DNA of 26,579 bases from a virus. Position numbers and translations under genes: made by a program. Below the pieces are notes generated by a model. It ran no database searches and was not told where the DNA came from. It saw only the letters and a list, made by a program, of their open reading frames with translations. Shown here in pieces: positions 6,815 through 23,300 of this stretch (position 1 is the stretch's first letter; each line of letters opens with the position of its first letter). The stretch spans positions 1 through 26,579 of IMG/VR virus record IMGVR_UViG_3300046724_000403; one strand, written 5' to 3'.

Positions 6815-7071
6815 TGCTGACTCGCCCCCTGGAGCCGGATCTGACCACGGTGCTGGCGTCGCCGGAGATGGCGGAGCTACGGGCTTACTGCGAAGCCGAG
6901 GGCATCGACCCCTGGGGGGCGTTGGCCCACCTCGCGGTCACGGCGCAGGAGATGAAAGCGCTGCTCGATGCCGGGGAGATCGAAGAGGTGATGCGGCGCG
7001 ACGCTGCGTATCCCGACCAGCAGCTGCTGGATCACTTCAAGGACGCGCTGAGCAAACATGCTGGCCACTGA
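6814..7071 (+). CDS. Hypothetical small helical protein, 85 aa
   Basis: The protein starts MLTRPLEPDLTTVLASPEM. Its ATG overlaps the upstream stop by one base (TGATG), so it is probably translated by re-initiation. It is acidic and helical, with a region DPWGALAHLAVTAQEMKALLDAGE (split by a proline) resembling small phage head-accessory proteins only in general character. Its last codons overlap the start of the Mu-F-like gene by 14 bases. Function unknown. Confidence 0.7.
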   Translation: MLTRPLEPDLTTVLASPEMAELRAYCEAEGIDPWGALAHLAVTAQEMKALLDAGEIEEVMRRDAAYPDQQLLDHFKDALSKHAGH

Positions 7072-7891: not shown

Positions 7892-8395
7892 GCCGTGCAG
7901 GCGTTCTGCTGCCTCGCGTCGGGCTGCGGCTGCCTCCTCTAGAGTTGAGAACATGCCGAGATAATGCACGACGCCGTTGTGCGTGATCTTGGCGCGAAAA
8001 CGCCCATGTAGACACAGCACACCTTTAACCCCGCTTTTATTCGCACTGTATAGACGCGAATATTCAGCATTCTCTACTTTGGTTGCGACGCGTAAATTGC
8101 GGATCCAATTGTGCTGTCGGTTTGTGTCTTCGTGATCGATCAGATTAGGGACCGGTTCACCGTGGACGTATAGCCAAGCAAGGCGGTGCGCTCGATACCT
8201 CGTGTTCAATATGCTGATGCTGATATAGCCGTTGGTGTCGATCCGACCGGCTATCTCACCGGCAAATTTGGCGTTCCAGCCATCAGCAGTTGTGCCGGTC
8301 TTCGCGCGCTTGCGCCACCTGAACACACCCGTCACCGGGTCATAGTCCAGCAGCTGGTGCACCAGCTCGCGCGGCGGTAGTGGTTTGATAGCCAT
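7871..8395 (-). CDS. HNH homing endonuclease with AP2 DNA-binding domain
   Basis: The 174-aa protein would cut DNA at a specific site to spread its own gene. The HNH nuclease part (about residues 45-105) has YRAHRLAWLYVHGEP followed by LIDHEDTNRQHNWIRNLR, the usual HNH_3 pattern with catalytic histidine and asparagines. The C-terminal AP2-type domain (about residues 118-170) begins NKSGVKGVLCLHGRFRAK and continues with YLGMFSTLEEAAAARREA. The ATG at 8395 has GAGAGG 8 nt upstream; a GTG at 8398 is an alternative. The gene points against its neighbours, is more AT-rich than they are, and converges with the Mu-F-like gene, all typical of a freestanding mobile endonuclease. Confidence 0.9.
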   Translation of the reverse strand: MAIKPLPPRELVHQLLDYDPVTGVFRWRKRAKTGTTADGWNAKFAGEIAGRIDTNGYISISILNTRYRAHRLAWLYVHGEPVPNLIDHEDTNRQHNWIRNLRVATKVENAEYSRLYSANKSGVKGVLCLHGRFRAKITHNGVVHYLGMFSTLEEAAAARREAAERLHGSFRKDW

Positions 8396-8488
8396 CACGA
8401 GGTCCTCTCCTCGTTGTTGGTCAGGGTGGCTCGGCGCGGTTCAGGCGCCGGGTTGCCCGCACTCTATACCCAAAAGGGAGAAACAGTC

Positions 8489-8935: not shown

Positions 8936-9172
8936 ATGCCGCTGACCGCCAAAGGCTCCAAAGTCATGGCAAACATGAAGGAGCAATATGGCGAAGAAAA
9001 GGGCGAAGAGGTCTTCTATGCCTCCAAGAATAAAGGCACCATTAAGGGTGTCGACAATACACCATCGATGGAAAACCCCCGCGACCACACGTGGCCGGTG
9101 GCGCTGCCGGGCGATACGATCCTGCAGATCGACGTCTATCGTTCCGGCCGCGTGAAGATCACGAGACGGTAA
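8936..9172 (+). CDS. Small conserved phage head-region protein, 78 aa
   Basis: The protein starts MPLTAKGSKVMANMKEQYG. Its first 38 residues contain KGEEVFYASKNKGTIKGVD, a pattern I recognise from short uncharacterised phage proteins found near DUF2213 genes, where it may be a helix-hairpin packing unit. The second half is beta-like (WPVALPGDTILQIDVYRSG). The stop overlaps the ATG of the polyvalent protein (TAATG), so the two are probably translated together. Confidence 0.7.
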   Translation: MPLTAKGSKVMANMKEQYGEEKGEEVFYASKNKGTIKGVDNTPSMENPRDHTWPVALPGDTILQIDVYRSGRVKITRR

Positions 9173-12100
9173 TGGAGTGGGCCACCATCACCCGGCTGTC
9201 GCCGCACTGCGACGAGACTGCCGAGGGCTATCGTATATACAGAGATGTGCCGATCGCGCGCACCGGCACGCAGATCTACTGGGAGAACGAAGTGCCGCCG
9301 CTGCAGGGCGACGTCGGCGGCAGGGTGCATGTTGAACGCGATGCCGCGGAGGTGTTCAACCCCGACAGCATCCGTTCGTTTGAAGGCAAGCCGCTGGTGG
9401 ACGATCATCCCTGGGAGCCGGTAGGCCCGGACAACTGGGACAATCTGGCGGTCGGCTACGTGGTCAACCCGCGCCGCGGCCAGGGGGTGCACGACGATCT
9501 GCTGCTGGCCGATCTGGTGTTCACCACCCGGCGCGGCATCGACGCGGTGAAGCGCGGCAAGCGGGCGATCAGCGTCGGCTACAACGCAGCCTATGAACAG
9601 ACCGCACCAGGGCTTGGCCGGCAGAGAAGTATCTTTTGCAACCATGTTGCCCTGGTGGACGAAGGCCGTTGCGGCGCGCGCTGCAGCATCATGGATGGCC
9701 GCACGGTCTACAATTACGACGCGGCATGGAATGAAGCGGAGCACCCGCGCGGCCAGCCAGAGAATGCCGGGCAGTTTGCCGAAGGCGGTGGCGGCGGGGC
9801 CGCAAAAACCAAAACCGGCCGTAAGAGCAAGGGCGCCGCATTCGTTTCGCCATCACTGGCTGAGCATCTCGACTTCCCGCAGGCGATCGCCGGGCTGAAG
9901 TCAAATCGCCAGCGCATCCTGGAGCAGGCGGCGCGCGAGATCGACCAGGGTCTCAAGCTGCGCTCACATAACATCGCAGCTGTCGGCGCATGGTCGGACG
10001 GCGCCGAGAACTCGATCATGAGCGAGATCGATGGCGGAACGTTTGAGGAGTTGAGCGTTGCCGCTGCGATGAAGGCGCATCTTGCCGAGCAGAAGGACGC
10101 CCTGGTGTTCCAGGACGATCCCAACGGCGATAAGTTCCTGTATAGCTTCCATGCCGCTGGCGACCTTGAGGAGATCCACAACAACCTGCTCGATGACGGT
10201 ATTGAGTTCCACACTGTCGTCCCCACCAAGGATGGCGCCACGGTCTATGTGGCCGATATGTCGGGAGATGCGAAAGATGCCGTTGCCAAAGGTGCTCAGC
10301 GTTATCATTCGAAAGTCACGGTCGACCAAGGACAAGCCAAGTTCATCGGGCCCGAAAACCAAGGTGGCACCGACGCCGAATACCGCGCGCGATCGCGCGC
10401 CGCCTACGAAGGAATCATTCGAAGCTCTGGGGTTCGAGGTGCGGACACCCTCTGGCAAAGGATATATAATACCTACGGGGCGACGCTTCACGGAGTAGGC
10501 GACGGCTGGACCGCCGACGTTGACTACGGTTGGCGCGAAGACATCGACTGGGATGACGACTGGGAAGAGGCCAAGCACCCGCGCGGCCAGCCGGAGAACA
10601 AGGGGGAATTCGCCAAAGGCGGGGGCGGCGGCGGATCCGGCGGCGGCAAGCGGGAATCGTTCGGCAAGAGCTACGTGCGCGCCGGTGAGACCGGCGAGAA
10701 GACCGCGGCCGGGGTTAAGGCGGAAGGCGGCAAGCAGGCCAAGGAGGCGGTCAACAAGATCGCCGGCAAGGCGTTCAAAACGATCAAGGGCGCGTTGGGT
10801 GCCGAGGACTATGAAATTGTCCACGAGCATTTCAAGGCCGCCAAATCCAAACCCAAAGAACGCGCCAAAATCGGAGGGTATCTGAGGCAGATGGCCAAGG
10901 CGGGCAAGAATCTGGCCAAGGCGCATTTGAAAGAAGAGGCGCACCACGCCAAGCACGCGGTGGGTGCGCTGCGCGCACTGGCCACCGGCAACAAGCCGAC
11001 CAAGCAACAGGCCATGGGGCTGTTCTCCTACGGCGCGCGGGCGCTGATGATCACCGGCTCGATGGCGCTGGGTGATCCGACCGGCCACTCGGGGGCGCTG
11101 GCCGCGACGTTCGCCGAAGACGCGGTGCACCACGTGCTGCTCGAGCATGCGGTGAAGCTGTTCGTGGGTGGCGGGTTCGGCATGATCAAGGGCGCTGTCG
11201 CCAAGCCGGAGCGCGACGCAGACCCAGGCTGGCGCCCGGATCAGTCAGACGACGAGCCAAAGGACGGCGACCCACCGGACGGTGATGAGTCTGACGATCC
11301 CGAGGAGATGAGCGACGAGGACGCCGCGCTGCTGCAGAAGTTCTTGGAGTGTCTGGCGGATACCGTCGAGGACATGACCGAGGAGGACGCCGTGCGCGTC
11401 CTGGCGCAGGGCGAGACGCCGGACGAGGACGAGGACGAGGGCGACGACGACGACGATGACGGCGAGCCCCAGGCCAAAGGCGGGGAGTCCGACGACGAGA
11501 CCCGCGACGTCGACCCTTGGTGGACCAGGGACATCGACTGGGATCCGGCGGAGCATCCGCGCGAGCCGGAGGGTGCGGCGGCGAGCAAAGGAGGCGAGTT
11601 CACCAAGGGTGCGGGCGCCAGTGCCGCACGGATGGCGGAGATCCGCGGCAAGAACAACGAGGCGAAAGCAAGCGAACGCGAGGGCAAGGCGAAACAACGC
11701 GAGGCCAAGGCGGCTGCCGCGGAAGCGAAGGCGGCATCGTTCAAGGAGCCGACGATTCCACGATCGAAGGAGGAGCCCTACGCCATCTCGACGCGGTTGC
11801 CATCCGAACCGCAACAAAAGAAAACCGGGGTCGACCCGCACAAGACCGCGTCGCTGCTGGTCGATTACGAGTCGACCCATCATCCCGAGGTGCAGGAGTG
11901 GTTGCAGAAGACCAGTGATCTGCTGGTCGGCAACACGCTCTACAATCGCGGCCTCGACAAGGATAAAAAGAAGAAGCCACCCCTGCCCTATGTCGGAATG
12001 CCGCCGGGGCCAGCCGACGAAACACCGCGCGAAGCGACCGAGCGATTCATTAACTTCGCCAAAGACAACATTCTGTCGATCTACCATGCGGTGCCGACGG

Positions 12101-13185
12101 AATGGCGCCACCGCGCGTCGCTCTGGTATGACGGCGCCAATGCGGTGGCCCATAAATGGGCGAAGGACTACGACAAAACGCCACAGCAAATTGCTGGTGT
12201 GATCGCTGCACAGTCACCCAAAAAGGATTGGTTCCAGAACGTCGAAGTGGCCAAGCGCATTATAGAATACAACAGCGAGAAGATGCGTGGCACGGCGTTC
12301 AACGACAAGGCTGCCGAGCGGCTGGATGCATTTATTGCCGCCCGCAAGAAGCCGCAGGACCGGTTGCTGTATAGCGCGCTGCGCGACAAGCTGCGCAACC
12401 CGGATGGGTCGTGGATGACGCTGGGGGAATTAACCGATCCGATTGAGCGCGCTGCCTTCATCAGCATGTATGATCAGGCCAACACCGATCTGCACTACAA
12501 GGAGCTCTCGCCGGAAGGTAAGTATGGCGATTTCGTGCGCAACAAGGATGTAGAACCCGAGGAGGCCGAAGAGGGCAAGAAGGCGAAGCCCGGCAAGATG
12601 GGTGATCCCACGGTGCTGGTCTGGCCGGTGATGGAAAACATCGCCAAGGGACTGCGGATCCTCGATGACGGGTCGGTGGAGAATATCTCAGCCAACCTGG
12701 GCGACGCGCACAAGGTGCGTAATTTTTTCATGAATATCATGTATCCGATGTCGAAGGGTGGCCATATCACTGCGGACACCCATGCGATTGCCGGGGCGTT
12801 CATGCGTCCACTCGGACAGAACGATCCGGAAGTGCTGGTCGGCCTGGGCAACGCCTCGCCGAGCAACAACACGCACGGTCTGGGTGGCACCTATCCAATC
12901 ATCGCGGAGGCCTACCGCCGGGCCGCAGCTGAGGTGAGCAAGGAGGGCGAAGAGATCCTGGCGCGGCAGATGCAATCGATCGTCTGGGAGGGGCTGCGCG
13001 GGCTGTTCTCGCCGGAGGCGAAGCGCAACAAGAACCTGCGCCAGGACGTCGACAACGTCTGGCGCAAGCACATGGCGGATCCGGAAAAGTTCACCGCCGA
13101 CATGGCGCGCAAGGCGATCATGCGGATCGCCAACCCCGAAACCGGCGCGCCGCGCACACCGAAGTGGTATGCGCGGACGGCTTAA
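9172..13185 (+). CDS. Giant polyvalent protein with N-terminal DUF2213 domain
   Basis: The 1337-aa protein has modules joined by a repeated linker. Residues about 1-185 are DUF2213-like (KPLVDDHPWEPVGPDNWD, then KRGKRAISVGYNAAYEQ and NHVALVDEGRCG), a domain found at the position of prohead proteases. Linkers of the form EHPRGQPEN...QF + polyglycine occur near 186-210, 464-490 and 790-815. Between them are an alpha/beta module (about 225-455), a Lys/Ala-rich helical module (about 500-680) and a very acidic stretch (about 690-785). Residues about 895-1337 form a large domain with IAGVIAAQSPKKDWFQNVEV (about 1005) and KVRNFFMN...ITADTHAIAGA (K1181, D1202), which resembles DNA-glycosylase HhH-GPD elements. 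The protein is probably incorporated in the head and perhaps delivered with DNA; function is inferred. Confidence 0.8.
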   Translation: MEWATITRLSPHCDETAEGYRIYRDVPIARTGTQIYWENEVPPLQGDVGGRVHVERDAAEVFNPDSIRSFEGKPLVDDHPWEPVGPDNWDNLAVGYVVNPRRGQGVHDDLLLADLVFTTRRGIDAVKRGKRAISVGYNAAYEQTAPGLGRQRSIFCNHVALVDEGRCGARCSIMDGRTVYNYDAAWNEAEHPRGQPENAGQFAEGGGGGAAKTKTGRKSKGAAFVSPSLAEHLDFPQAIAGLKSNRQRILEQAAREIDQGLKLRSHNIAAVGAWSDGAENSIMSEIDGGTFEELSVAAAMKAHLAEQKDALVFQDDPNGDKFLYSFHAAGDLEEIHNNLLDDGIEFHTVVPTKDGATVYVADMSGDAKDAVAKGAQRYHSKVTVDQGQAKFIGPENQGGTDAEYRARSRAAYEGIIRSSGVRGADTLWQRIYNTYGATLHGVGDGWTADVDYGWREDIDWDDDWEEAKHPRGQPENKGEFAKGGGGGGSGGGKRESFGKSYVRAGETGEKTAAGVKAEGGKQAKEAVNKIAGKAFKTIKGALGAEDYEIVHEHFKAAKSKPKERAKIGGYLRQMAKAGKNLAKAHLKEEAHHAKHAVGALRALATGNKPTKQQAMGLFSYGARALMITGSMALGDPTGHSGALAATFAEDAVHHVLLEHAVKLFVGGGFGMIKGAVAKPERDADPGWRPDQSDDEPKDGDPPDGDESDDPEEMSDEDAALLQKFLECLADTVEDMTEEDAVRVLAQGETPDEDEDEGDDDDDDGEPQAKGGESDDETRDVDPWWTRDIDWDPAEHPREPEGAAASKGGEFTKGAGASAARMAEIRGKNNEAKASEREGKAKQREAKAAAAEAKAASFKEPTIPRSKEEPYAISTRLPSEPQQKKTGVDPHKTASLLVDYESTHHPEVQEWLQKTSDLLVGNTLYNRGLDKDKKKKPPLPYVGMPPGPADETPREATERFINFAKDNILSIYHAVPTEWRHRASLWYDGANAVAHKWAKDYDKTPQQIAGVIAAQSPKKDWFQNVEVAKRIIEYNSEKMRGTAFNDKAAERLDAFIAARKKPQDRLLYSALRDKLRNPDGSWMTLGELTDPIERAAFISMYDQANTDLHYKELSPEGKYGDFVRNKDVEPEEAEEGKKAKPGKMGDPTVLVWPVMENIAKGLRILDDGSVENISANLGDAHKVRNFFMNIMYPMSKGGHITADTHAIAGAFMRPLGQNDPEVLVGLGNASPSNNTHGLGGTYPIIAEAYRRAAAEVSKEGEEILARQMQSIVWEGLRGLFSPEAKRNKNLRQDVDNVWRKHMADPEKFTADMARKAIMRIANPETGAPRTPKWYARTA
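9718..9801 (+). repeat. HPR-type linker repeat 1 in the polyvalent protein
   Basis: This copy encodes DAAWNEAEHPRGQPENAGQF followed by AEGGGGG. Copies 2 and 3 share W..AxHPR....(G)xF and the glycine run. It marks the boundary between the DUF2213 domain and the second module. Confidence 0.75.
10543..10641 (+). repeat. HPR-type linker repeat 2 in the polyvalent protein
   Basis: This copy encodes DIDWDDDWEEAKHPRGQPEN followed by KGEFAKGGGGGG. The HPRGQPEN core is identical to copy 1, so the linker was duplicated as a unit. It separates the second and third modules. Confidence 0.75.
11518..11628 (+). repeat. HPR-type linker repeat 3 in the polyvalent protein
   Basis: This copy encodes WWTRDIDWDPAEHPREPEGA followed by AASKGGEFTKGAGAS. 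It is diverged but keeps DIDWD, EHPR and the (G)EFTKG end. It follows the acidic stretch and precedes a Lys/Ala/Glu coiled segment and the C-terminal domain. Confidence 0.65.
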
Positions 13186-13385
13186 CGGCCGGCGCGTTCG
13201 CGCTCCAGGGCATCATAGTCGCGCAGGGATTCCGGCAAGCTGGCCTCGTCTTCGGCAGTCCAGTCGTAGTCGTCCATACCGAATGTCGCCATCGCGATGT
13301 AGTTCGCGCGGGTGAGCTGCTGCCCGTTGTCACGGAGCCATGTTAGCGTTGGGCTGTTTTTGATCTCGGCTTCGGTCACTGCCAT
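13182..13385 (-). CDS. Hypothetical small protein, 67 aa
   Basis: The protein starts MAVTEAEIKNSPTLTWLRDN and is acidic and helical with several aromatic residues. AAGGAG upstream sets the start. It is the last gene of the central leftward cluster and its stop codon overlaps the polyvalent protein's stop on the other strand by three bases (complementary TAAs at 13182-13185), so there is no room for a classical terminator between the converging genes. Function unknown. Confidence 0.7.
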   Translation of the reverse strand: MAVTEAEIKNSPTLTWLRDNGQQLTRANYIAMATFGMDDYDWTAEDEASLPESLRDYDALERERAGR

Positions 13386-13386
13386 G

Positions 13387-13704
13387 TCAGTCTCCTTCGA
13401 ATCTCCAGCCGTCGGTGCCGTGCAGGGCCCGTTTCCAGGCCACCTGACGGCTCAGCCCCAGGGCCCTTGCTGCCGCCCCGGCTGACGGGTAGCGCCCGTC
13501 TGGGGTCACCACAGCCCTGGCCTGGGCGTGATTGCCGGCGATGGTGTCCTGCTGGTTGATCCAGTCCTTAGCCTCCTGCACGGAGGTGAGGAAGGGCCGC
13601 GCCGGGCCCTTCGATAGCCGGCCGCCGATCGCATACAGCGGGCGGCCGGTGTCCGCGTGGGTAACGTCGGTGCGGACGATGGAACAGCTTTTGTAGGTGA
13701 TCAT
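13387..13704 (-). CDS. Small protein with C-terminal HTH-like segment, 105 aa
   Basis: The N-terminal 70 residues (MITYKSCSIVRTDVTHADTG and following) read as a beta-rich unit. The C-terminal 35 residues, PSAGAAARALGLSRQVAWKR then ALHGTDGWRFEGD, match the small HTH found at the ends of NUMOD-type modules and some homing endonucleases. A GGAGGAG ribosome site and an ATGA overlap with the gene upstream fix the start. It may bind DNA. No nuclease motif is present, so it could be a remnant of an endonuclease or a small regulator. Confidence 0.65.
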   Translation of the reverse strand: MITYKSCSIVRTDVTHADTGRPLYAIGGRLSKGPARPFLTSVQEAKDWINQQDTIAGNHAQARAVVTPDGRYPSAGAAARALGLSRQVAWKRALHGTDGWRFEGD

Positions 13705-13886
13705 TGGTGCTCCTCCAGGCGCTCGAGCAGATCGGCGACCGCCTCGTCCGCGGTCGCCCCGCGGCCGACGATCTGGCAGCTTGGATGAGCGTCTTCGGCG
13801 CCGTCATAGCTGTCGTCGTCGATCGCATAGAACCGGTCCGCGCGCGGCGCGAACCCGGTGTTGTCTTCCTCGACTCGGATCTTCAT
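13701..13886 (-). CDS. HicB-like small protein, 61 aa
   Basis: The protein starts MKIRVEEDNTGFAPRADRFY. The pattern FYAIDDDSYDGAEDAHP followed by VGRGATADEAVADLLERLEE is reminiscent of the short beta-beta-alpha fold of HicB-type antitoxins (partial RNase H fold), and similar small phage proteins exist without a toxin partner. No HicA-like gene is adjacent. The start has GGAGAA seven nt upstream. Function uncertain. Confidence 0.6.
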   Translation of the reverse strand: MKIRVEEDNTGFAPRADRFYAIDDDSYDGAEDAHPSCQIVGRGATADEAVADLLERLEEHQ

Positions 13887-13887
13887 C

Positions 13888-14091
13888 TCAGTTCTCCAGT
13901 TTGGCGGCCAGCTTCTGCAGTTTGGCGGCGTCGCGCAGCCAGGGCTGGGCGGACGCGTTGTCCTGCCAGTTGGCGCGGAGGTGCTCTGCCTTTTCGTGGC
14001 AGATCTCGGCGACGATCTCGAGCAGACGCGCGAGGCTGGTTGCGTCGATGGTCTGCTCGATGACGTCGGCAGCGTCAGAAGGGATACTCAC
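13888..14091 (-). CDS. Hypothetical small helical protein, 67 aa, GTG start
   Basis: The frame can extend to an ATG at 14106, but the GTG at 14091 fits better: it overlaps the upstream stop as GTGA and has GGGAG eight nt ahead. The protein then begins SIPSDAADVIEQTIDATSLA after its first residue and is helical throughout, ending in AKLQKLAAKLEN, which could be a coiled coil. No family recognised. Confidence 0.6.
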   Translation of the reverse strand: MSIPSDAADVIEQTIDATSLARLLEIVAEICHEKAEHLRANWQDNASAQPWLRDAAKLQKLAAKLEN

Positions 14092-14294
14092 TGCACAAAC
14101 TCCCATCGACCTACGGTGTTGCCGTTGCTGTCGCGCAGGGGGCCGCAGTCCCGCGTGTCGGGCCCGATACCTTTGACGACGGCAGTGGCCAGCGTCACCA
14201 GGATGAGGGCGATCTCAGGCCCGGGGTGGGGCTCACCGTCGTCATCGCAGAATGCGGCGTTGTCGGTGTCGATGCTCAGGATGAACTGGGCCAT
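14088..14294 (-). CDS. Hypothetical small protein, 68 aa
   Basis: The protein starts MAQFILSIDTDNAAFCDDDG. GGAGG lies upstream and the ATG overlaps the upstream stop as TAATG. A beta strand, then an acidic DDDGEPHPGPE segment, then a hydrophobic helix (IALILVTLATAVVKGIG) follow. This N-terminal pattern (FxLSIxTDNAAF) recurs in small uncharacterised phage proteins. Function unknown. Confidence 0.65.
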   Translation of the reverse strand: MAQFILSIDTDNAAFCDDDGEPHPGPEIALILVTLATAVVKGIGPDTRDCGPLRDSNGNTVGRWEFVQ

Positions 14295-14488
14295 TACGCT
14301 GCCACCTCCAGGCCTTCGTTCTCGGCGCCGGCCAGGATGGCCAGGGCGTAGCGGGGCTCGACGGCGAAGCCGCCGCACCAGCGTTGCGCGGACGGGTCGA
14401 GGTTCTCCTCCAGCCAGTCGCGGCCTTCGGGGGTGACGCCGGACACGATCACGATCGAGCCGTGATCCTGCAGTTGAATGTCGAACAT
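14294..14488 (-). CDS. Hypothetical small protein, 64 aa
   Basis: The protein starts MFDIQLQDHGSIVIVSGVTP. AAGGAGT upstream and a TGATG overlap with the next gene set the start. It reads as a beta hairpin followed by helices (PEGRDWLEENLD, and RYALAILAGAENEGL), with one GGFAVEPRY turn. Such proteins with the motif IVxxxTxxGxxWLxENL are common, uncharacterised phage and bacterial small proteins. Function unknown. Confidence 0.65.
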   Translation of the reverse strand: MFDIQLQDHGSIVIVSGVTPEGRDWLEENLDPSAQRWCGGFAVEPRYALAILAGAENEGLEVAA

Positions 14489-14688
14489 CAATTTGACTCC
14501 TTGCGAATGAGGATGCAGGCGCCCGGGTGATACCGAGCTTTGCTGCCATCGGTGAACTGGATCCGAACAAACTTTGTTACGGGGGTGGTGGAGACCGCGC
14601 GCACCGGATACTCGATGCCGCGGATCCTCACGACATCGCCGGGGACGATGTCGTGGGCCCATTTGTAGCCAGTGGTGCTGGGGGTCAT
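14488..14688 (-). CDS. Small beta-barrel-like protein, 66 aa
   Basis: The protein starts MTPSTTGYKWAHDIVPGDVV. The segment VPGDVVRIRGIEYPVRAVST then FVRIQFTDGSKARYHPG reads as a small SH3- or Hint-like beta barrel, common in short phage proteins. GGAGG upstream and an ATGA overlap fix the start. No catalytic residues of an intein are present. Function unknown. Confidence 0.65.
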   Translation of the reverse strand: MTPSTTGYKWAHDIVPGDVVRIRGIEYPVRAVSTTPVTKFVRIQFTDGSKARYHPGACILIRKESN

Positions 14689-14972
14689 GTGACGAACCTC
14701 CGGCCGGTGACGACGTTGACCAGGGTGACGCCAGGGCCATGCGCGGCTCGGGCCTCGGCCCGGTCTTCCGCGGTCAGCTTCGGCGGGTTGGCCCGGTAGG
14801 CCTTCAGGAAGGCGGTGTTCTGTCTGTCCCGCTCTGCGGCTGACTTGGTGAGGTCAACCGGGAAACCTTCGGCCAGGGCGGCCTCCAGCATGTCGTCGAA
14901 CGGCACGCGGCCGTTGGACTTCCAGGTCATCACGCCGTTGGCGAAGCTGGCGCTGGTGGCGAAATCTTTCAT
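14685..14972 (-). CDS. Hypothetical small protein, 95 aa
   Basis: The protein starts MKDFATSASFANGVMTWKSN. GAAAGGATC upstream fits a ribosome site. It contains WKSNGRVPFDDMLEAALAEG, then a charged helix (KSAAERDRQNTAFLKAYRAN), and ends with a beta-like VTLVNVVTGRRFVT. I have an impression of similar short phage proteins with the NGRxPFxDML pattern but know no function. Its stop overlaps the barrel-protein start. Confidence 0.65.
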   Translation of the reverse strand: MKDFATSASFANGVMTWKSNGRVPFDDMLEAALAEGFPVDLTKSAAERDRQNTAFLKAYRANPPKLTAEDRAEARAAHGPGVTLVNVVTGRRFVT

Positions 14973-14987
14973 CGAAGTGATCCTTTC

Positions 14988-15212
14988 TTATCCGAGATAA
15001 AGTATGCCGGAGTTGAATTCGCCGAACGTGCCGGAATACATCTCGTGGTCTTCAGGGGTGTCGCTGCGTTTCCAGCCGGTGATCAGCTGGCGGGCGTCTG
15101 CCTTGCTGATCCGGACCCATTTCTCGGAGCAGCCAAACCTCACCTGGGCGAGGACCTCGCTGGCGGTGTTGATCGCGATCCGGAGATCGGCGACGTGGGT
15201 GATGTCGGTCAT
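14988..15212 (-). CDS. Hypothetical small protein, 74 aa
   Basis: The protein starts MTDITHVADLRIAINTASEV. It has an alternating helix-strand pattern (VRFGCSEKWVRISKADARQL) and a Gly/Phe-rich C-terminal end. Its start lies in GAGATTCCGCAATGACC, an exact 17-bp copy of the start region of the gene at 15437. Unlike most cluster members it does not overlap its neighbours. Function unknown. Confidence 0.65.
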   Translation of the reverse strand: MTDITHVADLRIAINTASEVLAQVRFGCSEKWVRISKADARQLITGWKRSDTPEDHEMYSGTFGEFNSGILYLG

Positions 15213-15223
15213 TGCGGAATCTC
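15207..15223 (-). repeat. Duplicated translation-start cassette, copy 1
   Basis: The 17 bases GAGATTCCGCAATGACC (minus strand) contain the spacer, ATG and second codon of the gene starting at 15212. They are repeated exactly at 15432-15448, upstream of the gene starting at 15437, although the two proteins differ. The cassette seems to have been copied with its ribosome site. Confidence 0.6.
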
Positions 15224-15260
15224 TCTTTGGTGACGGGCGGCCGAAGCCGCCCGGTTGGTG

Positions 15261-15437
15261 TTAGTCCTTCTCGGTGATGGTGATGGTGTCGCCGGGCAGC
15301 AGGATGCTGCCCCCGATGAATTCGGCGACCGTCTCGGTGATCAGCGTGCCAGCGCTGTCGGCGGTGCCGTCGATGCGCAACGCGGTGCGATCGAGCTCGC
15401 CGCCGCTATTGCTCAGTGTGATGATGATGGTGGTCAT
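15261..15437 (-). CDS. Hypothetical small beta-rich protein, 58 aa
   Basis: The protein starts MTTIIITLSNSGGELDRTAL. AGGAGA upstream and the 17-bp cassette shared with 15207-15223 set the start. It reads as an all-beta unit ending in LLPGDTITITEKD. Function unknown; the pattern resembles short phage proteins with a beta-sandwich look. Confidence 0.65.
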   Translation of the reverse strand: MTTIIITLSNSGGELDRTALRIDGTADSAGTLITETVAEFIGGSILLPGDTITITEKD

Positions 15438-15448
15438 TGCGGAATCTC

Positions 15449-15673
15449 CTAGTGAGGGGTGGCCGCCCAGACTGCCTGGGCGGTGTCGAGCCAGCGCTGG
15501 GCGTGAGCAACCGCCTCGGCCCGCGTGGCGTAGGCAACGGCGGCGTTGGTGTTGTGCGTCCGCACGGTGGGGAACCGGTCGGGACCGTTGTCGGTCGTGA
15601 CGACAACGACGGGCACGTAGGGAAACTTGGGGTTCCGGCCGCGCTTGACGGCGCTGGGCTTCCGGGTGGTCAC
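15449..15673 (-). CDS. Hypothetical small protein, 74 aa, GTG start
   Basis: A GTG start overlaps the upstream stop (GTGA) and has GGAGA nearby. After a basic N-terminus (TTRKPSAVKRGRNPKFPYVP) comes a beta strand (VVVVTT) and a helix (YATRAEAVAHAQRWLDTAQ). The shape suggests a small alpha/beta protein, with the basic tail possibly contacting nucleic acid. Function unknown. Confidence 0.65.
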   Translation of the reverse strand: MTTRKPSAVKRGRNPKFPYVPVVVVTTDNGPDRFPTVRTHNTNAAVAYATRAEAVAHAQRWLDTAQAVWAATPH

Positions 15674-15858
15674 GGGGTGGTCTCCTCAGTGCGATCAGTC
15701 CGGCCACGCAGCCACTCAGTGTGGTTTGGCGTGCCGGGCGTGTAGGGGTTGGTTTCGTCGTCGTTCCAGTAGCCTTCCCAGTAAGCGCTGCTGAACTTGC
15801 CCTTGCGGGCAGCAGCGCGCTGGGCGCTGCGGGCTTGCAGCGCTTTGCGGGTAAACAT
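15670..15858 (-). CDS. Hypothetical small protein, 62 aa
   Basis: The protein starts MFTRKALQARSAQRAAARKG; it is basic at the N-terminus, aromatic in the middle (AYWEGYWNDDE) and charged at the end. Its start overlaps the upstream stop as TGATG. A GAGGAG stretch lies 12 or so nt upstream. No family recognised. Confidence 0.6.
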   Translation of the reverse strand: MFTRKALQARSAQRAAARKGKFSSAYWEGYWNDDETNPYTPGTPNHTEWLRGRTDRTEETTP

Positions 15859-16094
15859 CAGAAGGGCATCTCCTCTTCGTAGTAGGTGCTGGCGGGCTCA
15901 TCGCGGAGCGTCCAGCGGGCCATGTCGCGGTCGTAGATCAGGGCCTCGGTGAAGCGCCGATCGAGGTCTTCGTTGGCCTCTTCTTCAGCCCAGAAAGCGT
16001 CTTCGGCGGCCAGCTGTGCGGGGGTCTCGATGCCGTAGTAGCGGCAGGCCTCTTCGTAGCTGTGGAACTGATTTCCGTTGGCGTCTTGATACAT
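15858..16094 (-). CDS. Hypothetical small acidic protein, 78 aa
   Basis: The protein starts MYQDANGNQFHSYEEACRYY. The opening YxDxxGNxFxSYEEACxYYG reads like a small recognition unit, and the rest is strongly acidic (AAEDAFWAEEEANEDLDRRF). The ribosome site is weak (AAGGCAA). Small acidic phage proteins can act as DNA mimics, but nothing here proves that. Confidence 0.6.
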   Translation of the reverse strand: MYQDANGNQFHSYEEACRYYGIETPAQLAAEDAFWAEEEANEDLDRRFTEALIYDRDMARWTLRDEPASTYYEEEMPF

Positions 16095-16095
16095 T

Positions 16096-16224
16096 CTAGG
16101 TTGCCTTTTTCCAGGTCGGTGCGGCCATTGGCGCGAAATCCGCTGCCATCGCCGCCGCCGTCGGGGCCGGGTAGTGCTTGATCAGATACGCGAACCATTT
16201 CGCGTAGGCCTGCGGGTAGGTCAT
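16096..16224 (-). CDS. Leader-proximal small protein, 42 aa
   Basis: The protein starts MTYPQAYAKWFAYLIKHYPA and is short and aromatic. The ATG at 16224 has GGAGA six to seven nt upstream; the in-frame ATG at 16236 overlaps that ribosome site and is less likely. It is the first gene after the structured leader and promoter of the central leftward cluster, so its translation is the most likely target of leader control. Function unknown. Confidence 0.6.
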   Translation of the reverse strand: MTYPQAYAKWFAYLIKHYPAPTAAAMAADFAPMAAPTWKKAT

Positions 16225-16245
16225 CGGTTTCTCCATTGGGTGGGG

Positions 16246-16339
16246 CCAGCCGGTCTCCCGCAGTTCTGTGACGCGCAAGCGCGCCCTGGGCCTTGATGGC
16301 CGAACCAGGGATTGAACCGCGGTGCAAACGACCGGCTGG
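16246..16339 (-). ncRNA. Structured leader RNA element (nested four-stem fold)
   Basis: On the minus strand the arms pair as follows. P1: 16339-16330 with 16255-16246 (CCAGCCGGTC/GACCGGCTGG, 10 bp). P2: 16322-16314 with 16266-16258 (CCGCGGTTC/GAACTGCGG, 9 bp, one G-U). P3: 16310-16305 with 16289-16284 (CCCTGG/CCAGGG), extended by GCC/GGC. P4: a CGCG stem with CUUG loop at 16283-16272. The G-U of P2 would be an A-C mismatch in the other strand, so the minus-strand RNA folds better. It ends 22 nt before the ATG of the 42-aa gene, close to its GGAG. It carries a T-loop-like GGTTCAATCC but does not form a tRNA. It could be a riboswitch-like or protein-binding leader; function unknown. Confidence 0.6.
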
Positions 16340-16355
16340 TAAGGGGGGTTAGTCC

Positions 16356-16400
16356 GGGGCCTGACCGTGCGCCTAAAACACAACGCACGGTGTGCGCCCC
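16356..16400 (-). ncRNA. Long leader hairpin
   Basis: Arms 16364-16371 and 16384-16391 (ACCGTGCG/CGCACGGT) form a perfect 8-bp stem around a 12-nt A/C-rich loop. A second perfect stem, GGGGC/GCCCC (16356-16360 and 16396-16400), closes the base across a small internal loop. On the minus-strand transcript it lies between the promoter and the nested fold. There is no U-tract, so it is not a simple intrinsic terminator. Confidence 0.6.
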
Positions 16401-16490
16401 TTAGTCTCGCGATCCATAAAGCTAGGACCCCTGGCCAACCGGGACTTGCACCGTGGCGACCTCTCGAAGTTTCTTTCTCTTTTCAACCCA

Positions 16491-16519
16491 TATATAGGTA
16501 GGTTGACGGTAACCGTCAA
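16491..16519 (-). promoter_or_regulatory. Leftward sigma70-like promoter of the central small-gene cluster
   Basis: On the minus strand TTGACG (complement of 16514-16519) is followed by a 17-bp spacer and TATATA (complement of 16491-16496). This is a near-consensus -35 with ideal spacing and an acceptable -10. Transcription would start near 16484 and run through the structured leader into the gene at 16224. The overlapping palindrome suggests repression. Confidence 0.65.
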
Positions 16520-16521
16520 CC
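16501..16521. promoter_or_regulatory. Palindromic operator overlapping the promoter
   Basis: Two perfect 10-bp arms, GGTTGACGGT (16501-16510) and ACCGTCAACC (16512-16521), flank a single central A. The palindrome covers the -35 box and most of the spacer of the leftward promoter, so a dimeric repressor bound here would block RNA polymerase. A third half-site (TCAACC, 16483-16488) lies just beyond the -10. The binding protein is not identified; the HTH protein at 1323-1607 is one candidate. Confidence 0.7.
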
Positions 16522-16598
16522 ACCTCGGCGCGTATTTTTATGGAGGCGCCGCGATGCCGTGCCCATGCCAGCGCTGCGTGAACGAAAGGAGGGCCACC

Positions 16599-17570
16599 AT
16601 GAGTAGACGAACAATCGGCGACTATGTGCTGCGCGGGTTTTTATCCCGCGACAAAGCGACCGCGCACGCGGTCATTGAAGAGGCCGAGGCAGACAAGGAT
16701 CTGCTGCTGACCAAGGACGCCGACGAGGATCAGCCGCACCACGAGCCGGACGGCGATGAGGGCGGCGGTGACAAGCATACAATCGTCAATATTCACAATC
16801 ATCACGAGAACGGCGACGACGACAAGAATGGCGATGACGATTGGAAGAAGTCCAACGACGCCGCCATCAAAGAGCTGCGCGATGGCATGAAGGCCATTGT
16901 CGACATGATGACGTCCCGTTCGACCGACGGCGATCTGCCGCCCTGGCTGAAGAAGGGCGACGGCGACGACAAGGATGGCGACGACGACACCAAAGACGCC
17001 GAAGTGCCGAACCCGGCCAACGCCGGCGAAGAGGCACAGACCGGCACGCCGCCGGCCTCGATCGAGCCGGATCTGATGGAGGCTGACCCGGCCTTGAAGA
17101 TGGGTCCCACCATGATGGGCGACAGCACGCGGCAGTCGCGCATCAATCAGGCGATCAGCAAGCTGATCCGCGACACCAAGGCACGCGCCGAGGTGCTGTC
17201 GCCGGGGATCAAGATCGGCGTGCTGGACGGCGCGCTCGGTGACGATCGCCTGAAGCAGGCTGGCCAACGGATCTGCAACACCCGGCGGCAAGCGTTGACC
17301 GCAGCGTGCGGCACCCCGCGCGGCATGCAGGCGGTCGGGCGTCACACCAAGGACGCCATCGCGGCGATGTCGTGTGACGCCGTGAAGATGTTGTTCGTCG
17401 ATGCGTCCGATCGGATGCGGGCCATGAACAACGCGCAGAACCTGCCCAGCCCGCAGTTTGGCGACAACCGCCGCGCCGCCAACAGCGATCTGCGCTCGCG
17501 GATCGAGGCGATCAACAAGCGCAACGCCGAGCAGTGGTCCGCCTGGGGCGGCACAGCAAAGCGCGCCTAA
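16599..17570 (+). CDS. Acidic scaffold-like head protein, 323 aa
   Basis: The protein starts MSRRTIGDYVLRGFLSRDKA. AAGGAGGG five to six nt upstream is a near-perfect ribosome site. The N-terminal third is acidic with a HTIVNIHNHHENGDDD stretch and a predicted coiled segment (AIKELRDGMKAIVDMM). The rest is helical and more basic (DTKARAEVLSPGIKIGVLDG onward), ending RNAEQWSAWGGTAKRA. Its place between the DUF2213 gene and the cement and capsid genes suggests a scaffolding or internal head protein separated from its protease-like partner. A longer form from the ATG at 16554 (338 aa) also has a good ribosome site (GGAGG) and adds a Cys-rich MPCPCQRC segment. Family not recognised. Confidence 0.75.
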   Translation: MSRRTIGDYVLRGFLSRDKATAHAVIEEAEADKDLLLTKDADEDQPHHEPDGDEGGGDKHTIVNIHNHHENGDDDKNGDDDWKKSNDAAIKELRDGMKAIVDMMTSRSTDGDLPPWLKKGDGDDKDGDDDTKDAEVPNPANAGEEAQTGTPPASIEPDLMEADPALKMGPTMMGDSTRQSRINQAISKLIRDTKARAEVLSPGIKIGVLDGALGDDRLKQAGQRICNTRRQALTAACGTPRGMQAVGRHTKDAIAAMSCDAVKMLFVDASDRMRAMNNAQNLPSPQFGDNRRAANSDLRSRIEAINKRNAEQWSAWGGTAKRA

Positions 17571-17593
17571 CGGCCAACTGAAAGGAGACCACC

Positions 17594-18124
17594 ATGACCG
17601 CGTATCTTTTGACGATGCCGAGTGGCTTTCCTGGCTCACTGACACGCCAGGAACACGCCACCGTGGAAGGACAGCCGATCAACACCACCAGCCCGCCACA
17701 GACCTACGGGCAGGTGGTGGTGATGGACGTGGCGACCGGCACCATCCGCCAGCCGACCACCACCGACACCACAGGCTTTTGGGGCATCAGTGTGCGGCCC
17801 TATCCGACCCAGGGCTTCGGCCCGGCCGGCTCGGCGGCGCTGAGCTCGCCGGTGGGTGCGGTGACGCCACCGACCGCGGGCGCGGTCGACGTGATGCGCC
17901 GCGGCTACATCCTGTGCCAGCTCGGCGGAGCCACGGCCGCCGTGAAGGGTGCCCCCGTCAACGTCTGGACGGGTGCCACAGGCGCCGGACAGGTCACCGG
18001 CAATGTCACCGCGGTGGCACCGGCGGCCGGCTCCTGCGTGGCGCTGCCGGGCGCTGTGTTCATGTCGGTGCAGGACCCCGGGCCGTTGTCCCAGGGCCTC
18101 GTGGAAGTGGCGTTCAACATCTAA
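17594..18124 (+). CDS. Probable structural cement (head decoration) protein
   Basis: The 176-aa protein starts MTAYLLTMPSGFPGSLTRQE. The pattern of Pro/Gly/Thr-rich beta strands (GQVVVMDVATGTIRQPTTTD, WGISVRPYP, VMRRGYILCQLGG, GAPVNVWTG) matches phage cement proteins that clamp capsid subunits. AAAGGAGA lies ahead of the ATG. It directly precedes the major capsid gene, the usual position for this role. Confidence 0.7.
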   Translation: MTAYLLTMPSGFPGSLTRQEHATVEGQPINTTSPPQTYGQVVVMDVATGTIRQPTTTDTTGFWGISVRPYPTQGFGPAGSAALSSPVGAVTPPTAGAVDVMRRGYILCQLGGATAAVKGAPVNVWTGATGAGQVTGNVTAVAPAAGSCVALPGAVFMSVQDPGPLSQGLVEVAFNI

Positions 18125-18128
18125 GACG

Positions 18129-18145
18129 ATACGTTCGTATCTACG
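18129..18145 (+). repeat. 17-bp TACG/CGTA element, copy 3
   Basis: ATACGTTCGTATCTACG lies in the 72-bp gap between the cement and capsid genes. It matches the terL and portal copies at 15/17. GATACG/CGTATC (18128-18133 and 18136-18141) is a perfect inverted repeat inside it. This is the only intergenic strong copy and the one best placed to act on capsid-gene expression. Confidence 0.65.
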
Positions 18146-18196
18146 CCGGCCTCGAGCGCATCGCGGCACCCCCACACACTCTGAAAGGATACGCCC

Positions 18197-19180
18197 ATGC
18201 CAGACGGCATGACTGGCATCCCGCCCGCATACGGCGGTTTGCAGACGTTTGACGGCATCACGCGCGATAGTGCCGGTGCCTTCCTGACGGGAGAGCTCGA
18301 GCGGCTCGACCCGACACTGCACGAGCCTTTGGTTAGCATCACGTGGTCGCGTGATATCGATCTGCGCTCGGACATCACCACCGGCGATGAGTGGGTGTCG
18401 TTCACCAACTCAACGTTCGGCGCGTCCGGCGGTTTCGCGACCCAGGGCATTTCCTGGATCTCGAAGGACGCCAACGCGATCCCGGCTGTCTCGCTGGATA
18501 TCGGCAAGACCGCCAATCCGTTGCGGATCTGGGGTCAGGAAATCGGCTGGTCGATGCCGGAGCTTGCCTCGGCGATTCAACTCGGCCGTCCGATCGATGA
18601 GCAGAAGTTCCAGGCGCTTCGCCTGAAACATCAGATGGACACCGACCAGCTGGTCTATATCGGTGATCCTGTGGTCGGCACCACCGGGCTGTTCAACCTG
18701 TCGACCGTGACGCCGGTCAACGTCACCGGCGGCACCTGGACCTCCGGCGGTGCGCCGGTGATCATCCAGCAGATCAACGAGCTGATCGCGACCACCTGGG
18801 CCAACTCTGGTTACGCCATCGTGCCAAACCAGATCCGGCTCCCACCGCTGCAAATGGCGCAGCTGGTGTCGACCCTGGTCAGCACCGCCGGCAACGTCTC
18901 GGTGCTGCGCTTCATCCAGGAGAACAACCTCTCGATGACTCACGGCTCCGGCGCGCTCAACATCCAGGCGTCGAAGTGGCTTACCAACCGCGGCGTCGGC
19001 AACAGCCAACGCATGGTTGCGTATACGAAAGAGTATGACAAGGTGCGTTTCCCGATGACGCCGCTGCAGAAGACTCCGTTGGAGTGGCGCAGCCTCTACA
19101 ACATCACGACCTATTGGGGTCGGATGGGCCAAGTCGAAAGCCCGTATCCCGAGACGATTTCCTATCGGGACGGTATATAA
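18197..19180 (+). CDS. Major capsid protein, DUF2184 type
   Basis: The 327-aa protein builds the icosahedral shell. AAAGGA precedes the ATG (MPDGMTGIPPAYGG). Features resembling DUF2184-type capsids are VSITWSRDIDLRSDITTGDE, IWGQEIGWSMPELASAIQLG, DQLVYIGDPVVGTTGLFNLS and the C-terminal RFPMTPLQKTPLEWRSLYNI. The N-terminal arm, long helix region and beta-rich domain fit an HK97-like fold. The cement gene before it and connector genes after it support the call. The TACG/CGTA element flanks it on both sides (one weak copy downstream). Confidence 0.9.
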   Translation: MPDGMTGIPPAYGGLQTFDGITRDSAGAFLTGELERLDPTLHEPLVSITWSRDIDLRSDITTGDEWVSFTNSTFGASGGFATQGISWISKDANAIPAVSLDIGKTANPLRIWGQEIGWSMPELASAIQLGRPIDEQKFQALRLKHQMDTDQLVYIGDPVVGTTGLFNLSTVTPVNVTGGTWTSGGAPVIIQQINELIATTWANSGYAIVPNQIRLPPLQMAQLVSTLVSTAGNVSVLRFIQENNLSMTHGSGALNIQASKWLTNRGVGNSQRMVAYTKEYDKVRFPMTPLQKTPLEWRSLYNITTYWGRMGQVESPYPETISYRDGI

Positions 19181-19193
19181 CACCGTATATACG
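19177..19193 (+). repeat. 17-bp TACG/CGTA element, weaker copy 4
   Basis: ATAACACCGTATATACG overlaps the capsid stop codon region. It shares the 11-mer CCGTATATACG exactly with the terL copy, and 14 of 17 positions overall. Confidence 0.45.
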
Positions 19194-19400
19194 TAATTTC
19201 AGCTTTGAGACGGTAGATTAAATCCGGGGTAACCCGCGCGCCGCCTCCTTATTGCCGACCTCTGATGAGGCACACCGAAACTTGCGCTGTCGTGCCGCGT
19301 GGCAGATCAAGCATCGCAACCACGTCTTACCTGTCTTGCTGTGTCGCATCAGCGTAGCATTGCGGCGATGCAGCAAGTGGCCAAACCGACAGGAGGGCAT
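19181..19400. other. Intergenic region downstream of the capsid gene
   Basis: This 220-bp non-coding stretch separates the capsid gene from the gene at 19401. It holds the weak TACG/CGTA copy at its left end, a string CTGATGAG...CGAAAC (19262-19281) that resembles a hammerhead-ribozyme core without convincing flanking stems, and a hairpin at 19336-19376: TTGCT/AGCAA and GCATC/GATGC around an internal loop. AGGAGGG at 19391-19397 is the ribosome site of the next gene. No clear promoter or U-tract terminator was seen. Confidence 0.5.
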
Positions 19401-19781
19401 ATGCAGACTATCCAGGTGATCAAGCCGTTCATCCTGCAGCACGATCCGCTGACCCGGAAGGTGCGGGATCCGGTGAACGTGAACAACGAGATCGAAGAGA
19501 TACTGCCGTCGCGGAAGCAATATTTCGATGTCGGTATCTACGAGGTGGAGGACCACGTCGCCACCCACTGGTATGTGGTGCCGCACCTGAAGGGCTACGT
19601 GGCGCCGCCGGTGATCGGGATGCCGGAATTCCAGCTGGCGCGGCAGGCGGCGGAGAAGCTCAAAGCCGAGCAGGCGGCGGTGGATCCCACCTCACCGTCA
19701 CAGCCGATGCCGGCTGATGCCGTGGCACCGCGTATGGCGGGGCTGCCGCCGGGCGTGGAGCGGGCGGAGCCGATCGCGTGA
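19401..19781 (+). CDS. Hypothetical head or connector-region protein, 126 aa
   Basis: The protein starts MQTIQVIKPFILQHDPLTRK. AGGAGGG four nt upstream fixes the start. The first 80 residues are beta-like, with a proline- and valine-rich end (HWYVVPHLKGYVAPP); a Glu/Ala-rich helix and disordered tail follow. Its position after the capsid gene and before the DUF4054-type connector suggests a head-completion or decoration accessory. I do not recognise the family. Confidence 0.7.
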   Translation: MQTIQVIKPFILQHDPLTRKVRDPVNVNNEIEEILPSRKQYFDVGIYEVEDHVATHWYVVPHLKGYVAPPVIGMPEFQLARQAAEKLKAEQAAVDPTSPSQPMPADAVAPRMAGLPPGVERAEPIA

Positions 19782-20326
19782 GCGACGTCGTCGTCACACC
19801 TGTGCCGGGCCCGGTGCCGCTCGACACTTCTGGCGCGCCGGTGATCCCGACCAGCACCATCAGCGACCCACCGACATTCCGGCTGCACTTTCCGGAGTTC
19901 GGGGACGACACGGTCTATCCGGATCCGCAGATCCAGTTTGGCCTGGACATCTCCACGGTGTGCCTGAGCCCGTATCGCTGGGGCTCGCTGCTGCAGGCGG
20001 GCGTCGAGCTGATGACGGCGCATCAGCTGGCGCTGTCACAGCGCGCCCTGCAGAGCGGTGCGGCGGGCGGCACACCCGGCGCGGCGGGTGGTCTGGTGAC
20101 CAGCAAGAGCGTCTCCAAGGTGTCGGTGGGCTACGACGTCAGCAGCACCGCGATGGAGGGCGCCGGGCCGTGGAATTACACGACCTACGGTCAGCGGTTC
20201 TACTGGCTGATGCGCATGGTCGGCATCGGCGGCTACGAGGTGCTGAGCGACTGGGCCAGCGTCAACCTCTCAGGGGTCGCGCTGGGCTGGGCAACCGGCG
20301 TGATGTATCGCTGGGGCTCCTACTGA
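19778..20326 (+). CDS. DUF4054-type head-tail connector protein
   Basis: The 182-aa protein starts with a GTG overlapping the upstream stop (GTGA); GGAG lies 8 nt ahead. After a proline-rich N-terminus comes FRLHFPEFGDDTVYPDPQIQ, then AGVELMTAHQLALSQRALQ and SVGYDVSS, then YGQRFYWLMRMVG. This order (FPEF, YPD, AHxLAL) is the DUF4054 signature of small head-tail adaptor proteins. In many phages further connector and tail genes follow; here a fibre gene begins five bases after the stop. Confidence 0.8.
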   Translation: MSDVVVTPVPGPVPLDTSGAPVIPTSTISDPPTFRLHFPEFGDDTVYPDPQIQFGLDISTVCLSPYRWGSLLQAGVELMTAHQLALSQRALQSGAAGGTPGAAGGLVTSKSVSKVSVGYDVSSTAMEGAGPWNYTTYGQRFYWLMRMVGIGGYEVLSDWASVNLSGVALGWATGVMYRWGSY

Positions 20327-20330
20327 GCCC

Positions 20331-23300
20331 ATGATGGACGGCGCCAACTTCCCGCCCCCGAAGGACGACGAAGCGCAGCCGCGGGCGGGGGCGCGTTGGG
20401 AGACCGTGCAGCACCTCTACACCGTGAATTCCGGCAGCGCGCCGCCGGCCAACACGCTGTTAATTGGCGAGCTCGGACTGGAGCTGGCGGACCCGGTCAA
20501 GATCTGGGCCGGCGTGCCGACCAGCATGGACGCTACGGGCCGCAAGCTGCTCTACGACAGCAGCAAGGGCGCCGGGGCGGCATTCCCCGAGGCGCCGCTC
20601 GACGGGCTGGTCTACGGCCGCCAGGGCAGCACTGCGTCGTGGCTGGGGGTATTGCCCCTGACCGGCGGCACGCTCTCCGGAGCGCTGACCATCCAGAGCA
20701 CGAGCGACGCTACACTCTATGTCCATGCGACCGGACCAAGCTGGCCCGCCGTCAAATGGAACACTGATCTGGCGGGCACCGCTGCGGGCTACTTTGAATC
20801 GCAACGCTACGGCAAATCGCGCTGGTCGGTGGAGTTCGGCGGCACCGAGCGAGAGACTGGCTTTGACGCCGGCACCAACTTTCTGATCAACCGGTTTGAC
20901 GACAACGGCAACGTGAAGTTTCCCACTCCGTTCGCCATCACACGCGCGACCGGCTATGTGCATTTCGGCTCGCTGGTGTTTCTCGCCACCGATCCCAATA
21001 CCGACCTGGAAGCGGCGACCAAACACTACGTCGACCAGCAAAGCCCGGCGAACAAATACCTGTTGCTGACCGGTGGCACGATCAACCCCGGCCCGCTCAA
21101 CATCGAAAACCTGATCGACAACCCGCGGCTGAACCTCACCGGGCTGTCTGGCATCGGCTCCTACTGGCCGATCATCACGCTAAATGTGCAGGCGACCACC
21201 GGTTCGGTCGGTATCATCCAGAGCCAACGCAACGGCGCGCGGCGCTGGACGATCACCCTGGGCGACGGCTTTACGCCGGAGGTGCTCGGCTCCAGCGCCG
21301 GCACCGATCTGATAGTTTCGCGCTACGACGATTTCGGCGGGCTGCTCGGCAACGTGCTGACCATCGCGCGCGGCAGCGGCAACACCACCCTGAACGCCGC
21401 ACTGATCGTGGCAGGCACGGTATTGCTGCAAGCCGGTGATCCAACCACCGACCAGGGGGCCGCCACCAAGCACTACGTCGATATCAAAGCGGGCGGCTAT
21501 CTGCCGCTCACCGGTGGCCGGCTCAGCGGTGGGCTAAGCTTCGGGACGCGCTACGCGGCCAACGCACAAGACTTGAGCGCACATATCGCGCTGTATGATG
21601 GCTGGGGCGGCTTCAGCATCACCCCAGGCCATCTGAACGTTGTCGCTGGCGGCGCACTGGCGCTGAGCTTTGATGGCCCGTCGATCTTCGTGGCGCCGAA
21701 CACCGGCCTCTACGTGAACCGCGATCCCTCCACTGATATGGAGGTGGTCAATCTTCGCTACCTGAACGCCAACACGGTCAACATCGCTGGCGGCGACGCG
21801 CGCTGGGTCAACGTGACTGGCGACACGATGTCCGGCAATTTGATGATCTCCTCGCCGAGTCAGCAAACGGCGTTCGTGGTTAACGCGCCGATGGGAACCT
21901 CGCCGGGATATGCGTTCTACATCGGCGGCAGGCAGCGGTGGTTTGTCGGGGTCAGTCCTGATCTGGAAGATGGCAGCGGCTTCGGCAGCAACCTCGCATT
22001 TTACAGCTACCACGACGACGGCAGCTTCAGCGGCACGCCGCTATGGATCGATCGCCAGGATGGCTATCTCTGGGTGCAGAACACCATCTCGGTCGGCCGC
22101 GATCCGATCACCAGCATGGAGGTGGTTACTTTAGAATACGCGCGCGCCAACTACGCGCCGATCACAGGCGGTGGTTACCTCCCGCTGACCGCTGGGCCAT
22201 CATATCCTCTGACCAATGCGCTTTACATCGACTCAACCACGACGGGCCTCGCTGCTGCGATCCATCTTACGACACCGGGCTGGCCCGCCGTCGTGTGGAA
22301 CACCACGACCAACAGCGTCACAGGGGGAAACACTGCGGCAGGGTATTTCGCTTCGCAGCGACAAGGCAGGAACCGCTGGTCGGTAGAGTTCGGCGGCACC
22401 CAACAGGAAACCGGCGGTAATCAGGGCACTGACTTCCTGATCAATCGCTTCGATGATGGCGGCAACGTTCTCTACCCCAGTCCGTTCGGTATCAATCGCC
22501 AGCTTGGCACGGTGACCATCCTACCGCCGCTGATGCTCGCTGGCCCGCCTACAACCACCAACCAAGCCGCGACGATGGGCTACGTTGACGGCAAGGCGGG
22601 CAACTACCTGCCGCTCGGTGGCGGCATCATGCAGGGCGGCATCTCGTGGGCTGATGTGTATGGCCAAAGCCCGAGCGATGCCACGCATCATCTGATCCTG
22701 CACAGTGGTTTCGGCATCGGGGTTACCGCCAACCGGCTGAACTACATTGCCGACATCAACAGCGAACATTCATTCATCGCTGGCTCTGAGGTCGCGTGGT
22801 TCAACACCTACGGTCTAGGCATGGCGGCAGGCACCGACATCTATCTCGCGCGCGATCCCACATCAGCCTTACAGGCGACCACCAAGCGCTACGCCGATTT
22901 GATGCTGCCGTTGGCCGGTGGTGTGATGACCGGCGGCATCCGGTTTAACGATAACAATTACCTCGGTGTCGCTGGGCGACCCGACACCAGCCACCACATC
23001 ACGCTGTTCAGCGGTTACGGGTTCTCGATCACCACGGCCAGCTTGAATATCGTTTCGACTGATCAGATTTGGTTCTCTAACAGCCAGAGCGGCCACGACA
23101 TCGCCTATTTCCGCGAAAATGTCGGACTGGCTTTCGTCGGCATCACCAACACCGTCACGGTGGGCCGCGATCCAACCGCCAAGATGGAGGTGGTCACCAA
23201 ACAGTATGCCGATGGGCTAATCGGTGCGGCGGGCGGACCATTCCTGCCGATCGTTGCTGGGTTTAACAATGCGCTGACCGGCGAATTGTATCTGCCGCAT

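Follow-up and report, generated by a model that had tools for sequence, protein, structure and literature searches.

Repressor-overlapped early and accessory promoters of temperate phages carry lambda-type operators, dyads of 17-21 bp with an odd centre. The locus described here lies in the virus record IMGVR_UViG_3300046724_000403, analysed over its whole 26,579 bases (positions 1 to 26,579; hereafter the window), and resembles such operators in several respects: its dyad covers the -35 hexamer and spacer of a predicted promoter, a relative (L002) has tandem copies about two helical turns apart, and the dyad of a more distant phage (L042) recurs before small genes. It differs in that only one site is present in the window fragment, and the likeness is not a sequence match. 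Prophage moron and accessory loci (PMC7067206) share with it extra small genes on the opposite strand, a promoter of their own, insertion among late genes and absence from relatives; however, the window cluster comprises fourteen genes under one predicted promoter, and no clear terminator was seen. In HK022, putL follows closely on an early phage promoter and forms two stem-loops within about 70 nt (PMC9378689). The first 70 nt of the L002 and L005 leaders would also form two stem-loops according to folding predictions, whereas the window leader does not form the first hairpin and Rfam gave no match.

The reading favoured here, at a probability of roughly 65%, is that the cluster forms an accessory operon under repressor control, inserted among the head genes of a tailed phage, and that its 5' untranslated region (UTR) is freely exchanged. 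A moron-type cluster would be read leftward from one sigma-70 promoter whose -35 hexamer and spacer lie within a palindromic operator, and a dimeric repressor, of phage or host origin, would most likely bind the TTGAC-N7-GTCAA dyad and block RNA polymerase. A short conserved element would open the transcript, near 16484; what follows in the 5' UTR, two strong folds included, would represent a lineage-specific segment swapped by recombination and not needed for cluster expression.

Gene content around the leftward cluster

The fourteen small ORFs, all leftward and tightly packed, are located between the DUF2213 protease-like ORF and the scaffold-like gene of the head operon (Table 1). An upstream ATG of the first small ORF, at 16236, has no Shine-Dalgarno sequence, and a search for relatives of this ORF found none. 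The other 13 ORFs are mostly 100% identical in the sister contig L005 where covered and mosaic in L002; four have homologues in L042, and there were almost no family matches among the 13. L008, L010, L011, L012 and L014 have no leftward cluster, their protease and scaffold genes being adjacent or forming one ORF, and the cluster is therefore regarded as an optional insertion. As with morons, it is absent from related phages that carry the same late genes, and sequence match and conservation point to a promoter of its own.

Table 1 Features of the head-gene region and the leftward cluster (window coordinates)
Feature	Position	Strand	Remarks
Terminase	3313-4749	+	head operon
Portal	4746-6338	+	head operon
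MuF-type head protein	7058-7891	+	head operon
DUF2213 protease-like ORF	end at 13185	+	head operon
Other 13 small ORFs of cluster	13182-16094	-	tightly packed
Exchanged segment, 381 nt	16095-16475		holds both folds and first small ORF
First small ORF, 42 aa	16096-16224	-	ATG 16224, GGAG 16232-16229; present in this contig only
Four-stem fold	16246-16339	-	in this contig only; disfavoured when the full leader is folded
Hairpin	16356-16400	-	in this contig only
Conserved 5'-leader element, 27 nt	16439-16465	-	GAGAGGTC-N4-CGGTGCAAGTCCCGG
Predicted leftward sigma-70-type promoter	16491-16519	-	read from sequence
Operator-type dyad, 21 bp	16501-16521		TTGAC-N7-GTCAA core; overlaps -35 and spacer of leftward promoter
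Scaffold-like gene	16554/16599-17570	+	head operon
Small virion protein	17594-18124	+	head operon
Major head protein	18197-19180	+	head operon

The protease and scaffold of L010 are a single in-frame ORF (3185-4825) with an internal Shine-Dalgarno sequence and start, which recalls lambda C/Nu3. Protease and scaffold are about 6.8 kb apart in the window (9091-17570), a stretch that includes a long ORF extension with DUF7178 and the leftward cluster. The head operon is also interrupted by an HNH_3 endonuclease gene (7871-8398, minus strand); the L002 match covers 7443-7891 and resumes from 8473 with nothing between, giving a clean pair of occupied and empty sites. An open ORF of more than 2080 aa (20331-26579, plus strand), with many LPLTGG-type segments as tail-fibre-like repeats, runs off the end of the contig.

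Predicted promoter and operator-type palindrome

The preliminary description had placed an operator-promoter ahead of the cluster with a 10+1+10 palindrome covering it, and this part of the proposal is supported. The palindrome, GGTTGACGGT-T-ACCGTCAACC, with the minus-strand promoter set into it, is the sole dyad of at least 10 bp in the window, shuffles averaging 0.2. The putative promoter consists of -35 TTGACG (16519-16514), a 17-nt spacer and -10 TATATA (16496-16491), with a predicted start near 16484; it is missed by a generic promoter scanner because T is demanded at position 6 of the -10 hexamer. Relatives have either TATATA or TATGTA in the same register after TTGACG and a 17-nt spacer (TTGACG-17-TATGTA at the same place in L002), and the dyad is also kept.

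The dyad reads GGTTGACGGTTACCGTCAACC in the window and CTTGACGTCTGACGTCAAG in L002, where it persists with 9-bp arms and three mirrored changes, and a second tandem dyad in L002 (TTGACGTGCCACGTCAG, one base off) is situated 21 bp away. Three of the nine arm pairs have changed on both sides between the lineages with complementarity kept, which was reached by 22 of 500 column shuffles and by no register slide. Drawn from three distinct dyad sequences in the lineage and at least one change event, the mirrored changes are modest evidence for an operator, and half of the dyad is explained by the promoter, since the -35 hexamer is itself TTGACx. A promoter-overlapping dyad kept with such changes points to a repressor-controlled promoter. 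No repressor gene was identified in the 26.6-kb fragment.

Besides the promoter and dyad of six related contigs and the tandem dyads of L002, evidence for a repressor-controlled operon comes from the more distant phage L042/L155 (IMGVR_UViG_3300045110_000153), which has homologues of four cluster genes. Nine TTGAC-N7-GTCA promoters were found on its minus strand (TTGACATYTTASGTCAGG..GATTAT, contig positions about 17777-36795), placed before individual small genes, mostly directly before leftward ones and with short leaders. Some of the genes behind these dyads are homologous to the window's cluster, and the repeated promoter-dyad looks like a regulon of single-gene cassettes. The one longer leader in this phage folds no better than shuffles.

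Folds of the predicted leader and their replacement in sister contigs

Both folds previously described in the leader were recovered. The hairpin, reported as 13 bp, has 13 Watson-Crick pairs (8 bp and 5 bp) and two G-U pairs (-27.3 kcal/mol); folded alone, it was matched by none of 500 shuffles (z -4.6; plus strand z -3.6), and its probability in the full leader from 16484 is 0.99. The four-stem fold, made up of a 10-bp and a 9-bp stem plus two inner hairpins (-52.4 kcal/mol), was likewise matched by 0 of 500 shuffles when folded alone (z -4.7; plus strand z -3.9). Its strand-specific G-U pair (16318/16262) forms on the minus strand only, and the fold indeed ends near the first ribosome site, leaving 14 nt to the GGAG of the first ORF. 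The whole 245-nt leader has a z of -2.3. Windows of 94 nt taken at fixed steps (1060 per strand) were scanned, and coding ones reached z -6.5, with minimum free energies down to -55.9 (minus strand) and -58.8 (plus strand); the four-stem fold is therefore strong, but in this GC-rich contig such values also turn up without any leader function.

When the full leader is folded from 16484, the outer stem of the four-stem fold has a probability of 0.006 and the inner stem 0.03 (about 1-4% of the ensemble), as CCAGCCGG and TTGCACCGCGG are taken up by pairing with CCGGTTGG and CCACGGTGCAA further upstream. Moving the 5' end to 16436 or further in, or blocking 16466-16425, restores the domain to above 0.95. 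Forcing the folds as first described on the full leader costs about 4 kcal/mol and, as this is near the model error, full-leader folding weakens the four-stem fold but does not alone exclude it. The statement that no known riboswitch or tRNA is present holds: Rfam 15 gave no match at gathering, the sole match (sok, E 1.2) being due to chance, and ARAGORN found no tRNA. Homologues of either fold were absent from the viral and genome collections searched, and matches to the segment in phage and plasmid records were at chance level only. As an intrinsic terminator or attenuator, only a weak 7-pair match inside the hairpin was seen.

A major-head-protein search of viral contigs gave 31 loci. Six related contigs (L002-L007) have retained the promoter together with parts of the gene cluster, and both folds are absent from all six. 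The exchanged segment has as its counterpart 190 nt of unrelated sequence in L005 and L006 and about 83 nt in the other four (the L002 group). L005 is 99.0% identical over window positions 13984-16094 and 99.8% over 16476-20711, and L006 92.6% over 15797-16094 and 99.5% over 16476-22818; these two still have the promoter, dyad and downstream genes but lack the folds and the first ORF. Within the exchanged segment the 16439-16465 element alone recurs, and the persistence of a short element inside a diverged stretch, with contact points that are not blunt, argues against a chimeric assembly. The replacement segment of L005 (2112-2301, minus strand) has a long stem of its own, unrelated and made of two 9-bp helices, immediately ahead of the first gene.

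In the preliminary description, the hairpin and four-stem fold were proposed to act as a structured leader RNA that controls the cluster, and stem disruption in related genomes was named as evidence that would tell against this; such disruption is seen in all six contigs. The proposal draws on the strength of both folds when taken alone, greater on the minus strand, and on the position of the four-stem domain just ahead of the first GGAG, but the folds are missing from every sister contig with the same promoter and genes, including L005 and L006, which are more than 98% identical close by on both sides. With the four-stem fold at about 1% of the full-leader ensemble and coding windows of the contig folding as unusually, it is left unsupported and very unlikely. 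The leader matches no described RNA family in Rfam 15, and its structure is not kept in relatives that have the same operon. Against the repressor-controlled operon with an exchangeable 5' UTR, it may be noted that good folding (z -1.9) is also seen for the L005 leader with its replacement segment, as would be expected of a function that calls for some structure rather than a particular sequence.

The conserved 5' element and competing readings

The 27-nt element has 8 + 15 nt identical in the window, L005 and L002 between diverged flanks. It resembles a tRNA T-arm hairpin, and it could equally hold the Shine-Dalgarno sequence and GTG start of a tiny leader ORF. A tRNA or tRNA cluster is excluded by ARAGORN and Rfam, neither a full cloverleaf nor a tRNA model match having been found, and an attachment site in a tRNA 3' end was rejected, as GAGGTCNNNNCGGTGCAAGTCCCGG has no exact match in genome contigs and the location is wrong. 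Mimicry of a type I-C CRISPR repeat (ATTGAAC, plus strand) was dropped, being a partial likeness by eye only. The combined operator and element pattern gave 55 matches in viral contigs, all those outside this group being coding or chance.

A tRNA-derived or tRNA-like T-arm, whether the remnant of a phage tRNA or a hairpin with a T-loop that binds a tRNA-handling protein or another RNA site, is improbable, although it fares better than the other alternatives. Like the T-arm of phage tRNA-Met, the element has GAGGTC and GGTGCAAGTCC, and its loop, UGCAAGU with a GG/CC closure, is of T-loop form; a near-identical pattern, GAGGTC-N3-GGTGCAAGTCC, retrieves phage tRNA genes, chiefly those for tRNA-Met. 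The spacing in the element is, however, N5 and not N3, a difference of 2 nt, and there is no tRNA body, the 5' half being absent and ARAGORN and Rfam giving no tRNA match in the window, L002 or L005. The 13 nt that follow the loop terminate in CCA in L002, as would a tRNA 3' end, but this is CCC in L005; the CCGG/CCGG hairpin has a probability of about 0.9-0.99 in L002 and L005 but 0.00 in the full leader of the window.

A switch confined to this phage, in which a ribosome on the candidate GTG ORF (16451-16422; nine codons, VQVPVGQGS) covers the competing pairing sequence and lets the four-stem domain form, deserves very little credence. The Shine-Dalgarno-like GAGAGG 8 nt before the GTG is kept in all three leaders, and holding 16466-16425 unpaired raises the four-stem domain from 0.6% to 99.8%. 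Yet the complementarity is marginal against shuffles (20/500) and absent in the sisters (249/300 in L005), and the switch would have no clear output, because the Shine-Dalgarno sequence of ORF 16096-16224 is free in both states. Equally slight is the chance that the element marks a new phage 5'-leader RNA with a T-loop hairpin, followed by a rapidly exchanged folded module that pairs with the element or not according to translation of the tiny leader ORF. A stand-alone small RNA of about 230 nt from the same promoter would account for a compact folded region right after it, but with no intrinsic terminator before the first ORF, no conservation of the region in the sisters and only about 85 nt from start to first ATG in L002, it too is scarcely credible.

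Under the repressor-controlled operon, evolution appears to keep a DNA site of repressor type together with a short 5' element rather than a folded leader, and the whole is largely ordinary phage gene control. At this locus strong folding and conservation part ways: a z near -5 in a GC-rich phage leader was not evidence of function, and it was two near-identical sister contigs, L005 and L006, that settled the question of the folds. The promoter-dyad unit, present in nine copies in another phage beside homologous small genes, offers a testable regulon handle for uncharacterised small phage genes.
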